Source: Gemmatimonadota bacterium
Lineage (GTDB): Bacteria > JBHIER01 > G020348925
Direction of reading: 5' to 3'
DNA: 20,939 bases
Assembly: GCA_020348925.1 (NCBI GenBank)
Contig: CP070758.1
Location: 31,643 to 52,581, forward strand
Shown here: positions 2,117 to 4,171 of the stretch, piece by piece
Layout: the number at the start of each line of letters is the position of its first letter
Position numbering within the stretch: position 1 is the first letter of the stretch
The notes under the pieces: generated by a model
Told to the model about the DNA's origin: nothing
Database searches by the model: none
The model's input: the letters and a program-made list of their open reading frames with translations, nothing else
Program-made: the position numbers and the translations under genes

Positions 2117-2698
2117 TCATCGTTTCCCCTTCTGCGCCTTTTTACGGCCATATGCGGCCCTTTTCTCCTTTACATGGAAACCGATCTCCTTCTTTTTCGA
2201 TTCGCGTGGTGGGAGCAAGAGGGGCCGAATCTTTTGATATATGTCAGCCAGTGCCACATCGTGACTCAGTAATGCTCTCTCAATCTCTGCCAGCCGTTTC
2301 TCCATGAGTTGAGTAGCGGAAAGCTGATCCCGCATCTTCACAAAAGCTCGTACAACAAAGACGCTCATTTGAACAGCCTTGAGGCTGTTGAGCACATTGG
2401 CAGCCATTATGGCGCCGTGTTCAGTATAGGCATAGGGGAGATAGCGCCTGCCACCTCGTCCAGTCTTTGAGGTTCCAATTTGGAACCTCAAAGCCCCAAG
2501 TTCTTCCCTCTTAAGCTGAAATACGAAATCGTCGGGGAACCTTTCTGCATTACGTTTCATCGCCTTGTTCAGAATTTTCGTTTCAACGCCGTAGAGTTTG
2601 GCGAGGTCGGCATCCAGGATGATCTTTTGGCCTCGAACCTCGTAAATACATGATTCGATGCGGATCGTCGCTGGAATGATTTCCTTTTTCTTCGGCAT
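2117..2698 (-). CDS. ORF6N domain protein A
   Basis: This 193-residue protein has an N-terminal ORF6N domain (about residues 10-105), with the family signatures RGQKIILDADLAKLYGVET, a KRN-x-RFP-x-DF stretch and TEHGAIMAANVLNS. A helical, charged C-terminal part follows, ending in a Lys/Arg-rich tail. ORF6N proteins occur in phages and mobile or accessory bacterial regions, where they are thought to be DNA-binding, but the function of chromosomal copies is not established. It is a paralogue of the gene at 3222-3779 (roughly half identical by eye) and faces the same way, towards the restriction gene. GAGGAAG lies about nine bases before the ATG. Codons 70-77 form a perfect 29-bp palindrome (2465-2493). 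I cannot assign a specific role; regulation of or linkage to the neighbouring restriction gene is only suggested by position. Confidence 0.9.
   Translation of the reverse strand: MPKKKEIIPATIRIESCIYEVRGQKIILDADLAKLYGVETKILNKAMKRNAERFPDDFVFQLKREELGALRFQIGTSKTGRGGRRYLPYAYTEHGAIMAANVLNSLKAVQMSVFVVRAFVKMRDQLSATQLMEKRLAEIERALLSHDVALADIYQKIRPLLLPPRESKKKEIGFHVKEKRAAYGRKKAQKGKR
2465..2493. repeat. Perfect 29-bp intragenic palindrome in ORF6N gene A
   Basis: The arms CTTTGAGGTTCCAA and TTGGAACCTCAAAG (14 bp) flank one central base. It overlaps codons for L-R-F-Q-I-G-T-S. As RNA it would form a 12-bp stem with a 5-nt loop. Its centre is the first base of the codon after Gln, exactly as in gene B. Confidence 0.95.
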
Positions 2699-2840
2699 TG
2701 TCGTCGTCTTCCTCTCGTAATCTCAATTGTTGGAATCTATCATGAGATACGTGGCAACCTCCATATTGATTTTCTGGGTGGATACGATTTTAATCTCGTC
2801 AGGGTATGGTCGGTAGAGTTTCATGGGGGACTCTCGTTTT

Positions 2841-2894
2841 TATGGACTATGAATCCCTTGGGTTTTGCGCTTCGGGTACGATACCCGAGGCGAT
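2841..2894. repeat. 54-bp double-hairpin repeat, diverged copy 2
   Basis: The span aligns without gaps to copies 1 and 3. The second palindrome (TCGGGTA-cga-TACCCGA) is well kept. The first (TATGGACTATGAATCCCTTG) has decayed and no longer pairs well. It sits directly left of the 135-bp repeat, copy A. Confidence 0.65.
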
Positions 2895-2931
2895 CAATCA
2901 GCTCCAGAACTGTTTTGTGTTCCTTTGATGT

Positions 2932-3067
2932 TGCTTTCTCAATCAATTTCCAAGTCCGCAGTTGTCGCTCCAGGGTAATGCACTCAAAAATATTCACAGG
3001 ATGAGGTGATGTCAAGAGAATATCGTAAAAATTTGATATTTCTTGCACTTGAGCAAAAAATTGTCAA
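2932..3067. repeat. ~135-bp dispersed repeat, copy A
   Basis: The span aligns with 4510-4644 in the same orientation at roughly 85-90% identity with one single-base indel. The indel shifts the minus-strand frame, so the similarity is at DNA level rather than of a conserved protein. On the minus strand the small frame leading out of it reads SKEHKTVLELID, which resembles the restriction enzyme's N-terminus STAPKIVLDLVE. The likely origin is a decayed upstream region and first codons of a related restriction gene. Confidence 0.75.
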
Positions 3068-3080
3068 TTGACTTTGGGGA

Positions 3081-3112
3081 GTCGAAAGGTCGAAAAGTCG
3101 AAGAGTCGAAAA
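3081..3112. repeat. Tandem 8-bp repeat GTCGAAAR, four units
   Basis: There are four contiguous units: GTCGAAAG, GTCGAAAA, GTCGAAGA, GTCGAAAA. A purine-rich stretch (about 3118-3175) follows, sharing the string GAGCAGAGGTGC with 3939-3950. The region is non-coding, between ORF6N gene B and the 135-bp repeat. Confidence 0.85.
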
Positions 3113-3221
3113 GACTCAATGGAGCAGAGGTGCGGAGGAGAAGGGGTGAAGAGGAGAGTTCAAAGGAGATAGGGAATAGGTAATCCGTGTCTGGTGAATG
3201 GTTGGCTTTTTTGTGGCTATC

Positions 3222-3779
3222 CTATTTTTCCTTCGTTCGAAATCCAATTTGGCGGTGGGACGGTTCAGGTGGTTGCATGAGTTGTCGGATAGTTTCAAAG
3301 ACAATTTTGAATTGAGCATCATACTTTTTCTCGAGTTCATTCAGTCTCTGCACCAGATCAGCATGCGAGGTAAGAATATATCTCAAGCGGACAAAAGCAC
3401 GTACCACGTAAACACTCATCAGAACGGCCCGCTTGCTTCTCAGAACATTCGCTGCCATAAGGGCACCGTGTTCGGTGAAAGCACGTGGTAACTTGCGTTT
3501 ACCACCATGTGATGAACTGATCACAATCGGTGACCAGTTTTCGTCGCATCTTGAAGTCACATTTTGTGACTTCAAGTTTGTAACTTCTTGCCGTGTAATA
3601 CGAAACGCAAAGTCTTCAGGAAACTTGTCCATGTTTCTTTTAACGGCTTGATTCAATACTTTTGTCTCGACACCGTAAAGACGAGCGAGATCAGCATCCA
3701 GAATAACTTTTTGCCCTCTAATTTGGAGAATCACCTGCTCAACGTTCTCAACAGGAATAAGAACTGAATCGTGAACCAT
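3222..3779 (-). CDS. ORF6N domain protein B
   Basis: This 185-residue paralogue of the product of 2117-2698 has an ORF6N domain at about residues 12-120 (RGQKVILDADLARLYGVETK, KRNMDKFPEDF, FTEHGALMAANVL). A helical segment follows (about 130-165), and the tail IGFRTKEK parallels IGFHVKEK in A. The start is well supported: AGGAGG lies seven bases before the ATG. Compared with A it has about 11 extra residues (around 77-90, CDENWSPIVISSS) placed just after a 27-bp palindrome at codons 69-76. The C-termini of both are better conserved than expected for decaying genes, so both are probably functional. The role is unknown. The family is linked to phage and mobile DNA and probably binds DNA. Confidence 0.9.
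   Translation of the reverse strand: MVHDSVLIPVENVEQVILQIRGQKVILDADLARLYGVETKVLNQAVKRNMDKFPEDFAFRITRQEVTNLKSQNVTSRCDENWSPIVISSSHGGKRKLPRAFTEHGALMAANVLRSKRAVLMSVYVVRAFVRLRYILTSHADLVQRLNELEKKYDAQFKIVFETIRQLMQPPEPSHRQIGFRTKEK
3550..3576. repeat. 27-bp intragenic palindrome in ORF6N gene B
   Basis: The arms CTTGAAGTCACA and TGTGACTTCAAG (12 bp) flank three bases. It overlaps codons for L-K-S-Q-N-V-T-S. The sequence differs from the palindrome in gene A, but its position and codon register are identical. Confidence 0.95.
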
Positions 3780-4117
3780 TTTTTAGCCTCCTCTTTCTCG
3801 CCCTTCTGAAGTCCTTCTTTTACATGAGGAACGTTAAGTTGAAAAATACATCGGTATCTCTTAAACGAAACGATACATCCAAATTAATGCAGAAGGTTAT
3901 ACGAAACAAGAGATTTTTCCTATAGAAAAACCTAAACTGAGCAGAGGTGCAGAGGTGCAGGGATGGAAAGGTGAATGTGTAAATGCATATAAGCGTATAT
4001 GAGAAAGCAGAGGAGAAGGGGATGGATGGTTGAATGTCATGGTAGGGTCATATCGAAAGGTCGCCTGGGACTCCCATCTTGGGACACAATTCTATAGAGT
4101 ATCTGCCCACTAAGAGC
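3780..4117. other. Intergenic region upstream of ORF6N gene B, no gene seen
   Basis: I see no credible coding region. It holds the ribosome binding site of ORF6N gene B at its left end. Purine-rich sequence from about 3937 to 4036 includes AGAGGTGC twice in tandem and a short palindrome, CATATA-agcg-TATATG (3986-4001). Any promoter for gene B should lie here on the minus strand, but I could not pick one with confidence. Confidence 0.6.
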
Positions 4118-4171
4118 GATGGGCTGTGAAGCCCATGGATCATGCGCCTCGGGTAAGATACCCGAGGCAAT
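4118..4171. repeat. 54-bp double-hairpin repeat, copy 3
   Basis: Nearly identical to 2028-2081 (four substitutions by eye), with both palindromes intact. It marks the left edge of the stretch that separates it from the 135-bp repeat, copy B. Confidence 0.8.

Follow-up and report, generated by a model that had tools for sequence, protein, structure and literature searches.

Two adjacent genes of one protein family carry perfect palindromes at the same codons but with different sequences, and the question is what keeps them there. Both genes are on the minus strand of a 20,939-nucleotide stretch of a Gemmatimonadota genome (hereafter the window), and both products score above the curated cut-off of the ORF6N family (PF10543). 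The relevant features are:

2117..2698, minus strand: gene A, ORF6N protein of 193 aa (PF10543, 110.5 bits; cut-off 27.8)
2465..2493: putative operator embedded in A, CTTTGAGGTTCCAA-A-TTGGAACCTCAAAG on the coding strand; perfect, 14-bp arms, 1-bp centre
2549..2584, minus strand: recognition helix of A (ETKILNKAMKRN, aa 39-50; specificity residues K41, I42, K45), from the AF2 helix and the coupling analysis
3222..3779, minus strand: gene B, ORF6N protein of 185 aa (PF10543, 111 bits; cut-off 27.8)
3518..3536: decayed second operator-like copy, TGGTCACCGATTGTGATCA on the coding strand, within 11 extra codons of B
3550..3576: putative operator embedded in B, CTTGAAGTCACA-AAA-TGTGACTTCAAG; perfect, 12-bp arms, 3-bp centre
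3633..3668, minus strand: recognition helix of B (ETKVLNQAVKRN; K40, V41, Q44), from alignment to A

A palindromic site conserved as DNA

We have re-derived the coordinates and arms of both palindromes (A, 2465-2493; B, 3550-3576), and they lie where a sequence-only reading of the window had placed them, centred on the first base of the codon after the Gln of L-x-x-Q-x-x-T-S. The 11 extra codons reported for B were likewise recovered, with 33 codons from the palindrome to the FTEHG anchor in B versus 22. The same reading had argued that coding constraint alone would not maintain the third-base matches. Holding the peptide fixed and scoring the arm at its observed centre, we found that the observed arm was reached by only 4 of 300,000 synonymous versions for A and by 29 of 300,000 for B. 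At the corresponding site, a third intact ORF6N paralogue from another part of the genome reads TTTGACATCGCA-AAA-TGCGATGTCAAA.

The window's genome also contains fragmented ORF6N copies (L004, L005 and L006), which suggests gain and decay of ORF6N genes. Separately, three copies of a REP-like repeat (GATGGGCTGTGAAGCCCAT...CGGGTANGATACCCG) flank A and B (2007-2081, 2820-2894 and 4097-4171); of the only five occurrences of its CGGGTANGATACCCG part in the whole genome, three lie in this window.

ORF6N genes were then collected by protein profile and conserved peptide, not by palindrome; a few loci came via the palindrome pattern, yet from genomes already picked by protein. Genome contigs supplied 80 loci and viral contigs 59; with plasmid records and whole-genome searches around several phyla added, the set came to 383 non-redundant genes, 346 of them with a usable anchor. 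The proposal that this site is palindromic in ORF6N genes at large withstood synonymous shuffling with each ORF's own codon usage (200 shuffles per gene): the mean best dyad score over the 346 genes was 11.0, compared with 3.58 in the shuffles, and 86% of the genes beat all 200 of theirs. Chance combined with codon bias is ruled out by these shuffles as the source of the palindromes. A dyad score of at least 8 was obtained at the same site in 312 of the 346 genes, from many phyla, and 39 of 47 ORF6N genes on viral contigs have the dyad. About 10% of ORF6N genes have no strong internal dyad, and most of these have no upstream dyad either. A single-sequence scan of the viral contigs with gene A as the query gave no relative; an alignment query of these contigs did. 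The phylum-wide search around the window's genome returned that genome only.

Among 295 strong dyads, the centre falls on codon base 1 in 278, where the frame reads LRSQIATS, and on codon base 2 in 17, where it reads EVVANCDHL, a wholly different peptide. Since the dyad occurs in two reading frames, the conserved entity is the DNA and not the peptide.

A dyad whose bases follow the recognition helix

Watson-Crick pairing is 86-100% at positions ±2 to ±13 and drops to 50% at ±14, the element being a 27-bp DNA dyad with 12-bp arms and a 3-bp centre. The pairing by paired changes noted between A and B proved strong across hundreds of genes; these changes vary offsets 4, 5, 7, 8 and 10, and at offset 4 the pairs are A-T (134), G-C (98), C-G (80) and T-A (4). 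Two loci, L473 and L010 (a Treponema plasmid), have the rare half-site TCGAAA.TTTCGA, with A instead of C at -3 and the motif Q becoming K.

A further candidate, an mRNA hairpin within the coding sequence, would act on elongation, translation or decay, and a perfect inverted repeat with a 3-nt centre would indeed fold as RNA. However, A.C mismatches (44) outnumber G.T mismatches (18), the opposite of what RNA pairing with tolerated G:U pairs would leave, and therefore the unit is double-stranded DNA and not an RNA stem. Moreover, Rfam holds no family matching the palindrome, the same element also occurs upstream of genes, and its bases covary with the recognition helix of a helix-turn-helix (HTH), as detailed below. 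The hairpin is thus very improbable.

In the AF2 model of A, helix 40-49 follows helix 29-36 as a predicted HTH DNA-binding domain, and the palindrome-coded residues (about 70-78) lie where helix 64-74 ends and in a loop of low confidence. We have compared protein columns with palindrome bases in 242 genes less than 75% identical, with the palindrome codons masked. The signal fell on E-T-K41-I42-L-N-K45-A46 (gene A numbering), the recognition helix encoded 70-115 bp upstream of the palindrome, and most other columns were near zero. Base 4 and residue 45 shared 1.03 nats of mutual information (z 121); the z values were 60 for base 5 with residue 45, 48 for base 4 with residue 42 and 40 for base 7 with residue 41. 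We did not treat as recognition the couplings between the outer positions (±10 to ±13) and the columns that immediately follow the palindrome, because these columns abut the coding overlap.

Residues 45, 42 and 41 predict arm bases -4, -5 and -7 almost deterministically. At -4, E45 goes with G (63/63, also tallied as 98/98), K45 with C (27/27, also 36/36), Q45 with A (98/101, also about 140/145), R45 with C (41/45) and L45 with T (3/3). K45 further goes with T at -5 (27/27), and K41 with G at -7 (140/142). Taken as residue pairs, R42 with E45 gives CG at -5-4 (63/63), V/A42 with Q45 gives CA (82/83), N42 with K45 gives TC (20/20) and Q42 with R45 gives GC (16/16). The code also holds for palindromes in the other reading frame, and it is obeyed by A, B and the third paralogue alike: operator A has TC at -5-4, as K45 predicts, and G at -7, as K41 predicts, and operator B has CA (Q44) and G (K40).

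Shared ancestry is not the cause of this code, because close relatives of unlike residue-45 class have different bases at -4 in 152 of 156 pairs, and control pairings do not (66/116 and 29/153); phylogenetic confounding was rejected on these contrasts. With the rules fixed first, 44 new ORF6N genes were taken around two further phylum centres. The dyad was present in 41 of them, and the predictions were correct at -4 in 37 of 39 cases, at -5 in 27 of 27 and at -7 in 27 of 27 (91 of 93 bases in total); for one of the two misses (L486), a second dyad obeys the code. The coupling, the code tables, the held-out genes and the contrasts between relatives all have the site sequence determined by the gene's own recognition helix.

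The ORF6N proteins are related to phage antirepressors of the KilA-N/Bro-N type in sequence and fold, with a match to PHROG 4792 (7.8e-25) and KilA-N proteins as top viral fold matches. Among solved structures there was no convincing relative, the best sequence matches covering the coiled-coil segment only; Foldseek gave nothing at E ≤ 0.001, and VIA-align reached Z values of at most 6.6, with Ski/Dachshund, MerR-like and Mbp1-like winged helices.

The palindrome as a probable operator of its own gene

The window's genome, 5.04 Mb in size, has the full motif in its three intact ORF6N genes and nowhere else (reversed control, 0); with one mismatch tolerated, just two more matches appear, both non-palindromic. 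In 39 genomes, scanned for the TCRC form of the motif only (control, zero), there were 50 places: 35 within an ORF6N domain, 10 at 81-236 bp upstream of ORF6N, 1 at 265 bp downstream, 1 at 1,053 bp upstream and 3 elsewhere. A palindrome dispersed by mobility is ruled out by the restriction to ORF6N genes in the window's genome and by the 46 of 50 places in ORF6N or at most 265 bp away, with no scatter over unrelated loci. A mobile palindromic element (RPE-, REP- or MITE-like) that merely happens to insert in ORF6N genes would account for the two reading frames and for extra copies in the loop and upstream, but not for this distribution or for a sequence that fits the host gene's own helix, and is hardly credible.

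Two loci stand apart from ORF6N domains. L264 has a perfect operator-like dyad (CTTGAGGTCACAATTTGTGACCTCAAG, 1286-1312) with no ORF6N gene detected nearby. L027 has two (983 and 1084); a MazF-like toxin gene lies on one side of them and a Phd-like antitoxin/RelE-like pair on the other (named by eye), and an ORF6N gene follows about 1 kb downstream.

We conclude, with a probability of about 0.88, that the 27-bp palindrome serves the ORF6N protein of the same gene as its operator. Conservation at the DNA level, coupling to specificity and near-exclusive location in or beside ORF6N genes are direct results of the computation. Since the recognition helix coevolves with a site 70-115 bp further on, the protein would bind within its own gene; from this coevolution of sequences we strongly infer physical binding, and we also infer dimerisation and repression. 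Among the roles first proposed, a paralogue-specific operator bound by the ORF6N protein itself is therefore the supported one, as the palindrome bases track that protein's own recognition-helix residues.

The ORF6N protein would act as a dimer with an HTH, the dimer being suggested by the dyad and a long C-terminal helix. Positions 2, 3 and 6 of the recognition helix would read base pairs -7, -5 and -4 of each half-site (K41, I42 and K45 in A; K40, V41 and Q44 in B), and each paralogue would have its own palindrome because the residues differ at the reading positions. The operator would be encoded at a helix end and in a flexible loop, a place where it costs the protein sequence little. Bound about 200 bp inside the gene, the dimer may block the transcribing polymerase as a roadblock, providing negative feedback that travels with the gene whatever promoter stands in front. 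As a caution, intragenic binding sites can be transcriptionally inert, according to a study on PhoB (PMC10294691).

A site for recombination, homing or segregation (parS- or att-like) instead of transcription control would also be a self-binding site inside the gene of its binding protein, and tandem duplications at the loop would fit it, as would the long C-terminal region present in a minority of ORF6N proteins, one of which has a weak PLD-like match. Yet beyond an HTH and a coiled coil most ORF6N proteins have no domain, neither a recombinase nor a nuclease motif was seen in them, and the promoter-region sites upstream fit regulation better; we regard such a site as unlikely. Nothing in the data directly supports the recombination or insertion site that the sequence-only reading had also considered, although second operators are tolerated in the loop. 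These probably explain the length variation at the loop, including the 11 extra residues of B. On the Treponema plasmid (L010), the operator-bearing ORF6N gene lies between type I methyltransferase and S subunit genes, and its product has a C-terminal PLD-like match below the cut-off.

Operators beyond the own gene's site point to a wider arrangement. Fourteen genes have at least two dyads in the loop; each has at least one obeying its own helix, and nine have another that disobeys it. Upstream dyads are present in 72 ORF6N genes, and 23 of 66 obey the gene's own code, which is about chance level; in genes with no internal site, 5 of 5 upstream sites with a conserved core obey it. Because upstream dyads of genes with an internal operator follow the own code at about chance level, autoregulation is not the whole story. 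Upstream of L411 (-126 to -42 of the domain) there are four adjacent 27-bp operator-like dyads, three of foreign specificity.

ORF6N proteins might therefore form a closed regulatory or exclusion network, binding their own and each other's genes and repressing operator carriers, in the manner of phage immunity or plasmid incompatibility. Such a network is compatible with the self-operator and goes further. It would explain the foreign-specificity operators upstream and in loops, including the four within 126 bp at L411. For 20 of 27 foreign upstream sites a sampled paralogue has the matching helix, versus 14.4 ± 2.1 at random, and half-sites common to two paralogues of a genome are fewer than expected (1.7% versus 4.3%, p 0.018), numbers that rest on incompletely sampled paralogue sets and include several foreign sites that are the internal operator of a tandem neighbour. 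These modest effects suggest cross-regulation among ORF6N genes; the closed network itself we consider possible but rather doubtful. Our most general reading, tentative and given a little less than an even chance, is that ORF6N genes are self-contained units across phyla whose proteins bind almost only their own and each other's genes, in closed exclusion networks with a readable code, and that LxSQxxTS, the signature peptide of the family, exists as operator code and not for protein function.

Significance and relation to known systems

ORF6N is a widespread family with almost no literature, being mentioned in 5 of 5.39 million open papers, and it now has a specific, testable predicted activity. 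Its recognition code is near-deterministic, with at least five specificities, and its putative cognate protein-operator pairs, in the hundreds, could find use as orthogonal repressors. The family also offers a domain signature in protein databases that is driven by DNA, where peptide conservation can be mistaken for protein constraint. We found no paper on ORF6N operators; searching ORF6N together with palindromes gave word overlap only (a phage paper).

RptR (PMC12255303) is a different system, its targets being promoter repeats that contain a 6-bp palindrome. KilA-N, Bro-N and phage antirepressors resemble ORF6N proteins in sequence profiles and predicted fold, and the literature searched gave neither an operator within the gene nor a recognition code for them. 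Rickettsia palindromic elements are also palindromes inside ORFs but are dispersed among unrelated genes, whereas the ORF6N element is nearly private to one family. ParB, like ORF6N, is a DNA-binding protein with a palindrome in its own gene, parS lying inside parB; it serves segregation through several sites of conserved sequence, whereas the ORF6N site diverges with each protein.

The nearest precedents are intragenic operators and the LacI code. Operators acting as roadblocks inside genes are known from purB/PurR, gal OI and lac O2, where a separate regulator acts on an enzyme gene. They share with ORF6N an operator within coding DNA and a proposed roadblock; the ORF6N site differs in that it belongs to the gene of the regulator, keeps one position across phyla and coevolves with the protein. 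Roadblocking is reviewed in PMC10310618 and PMC4132739. In the LacI family, a recognition code has been read from autoregulated operators (Camas 2010, PMC2978694), with two helix residues and two bases setting specificity and coevolution with locally regulated sites, as in ORF6N. That code concerns another protein family whose operators were sought intergenically, whereas the ORF6N site lies inside the regulator's own ORF.
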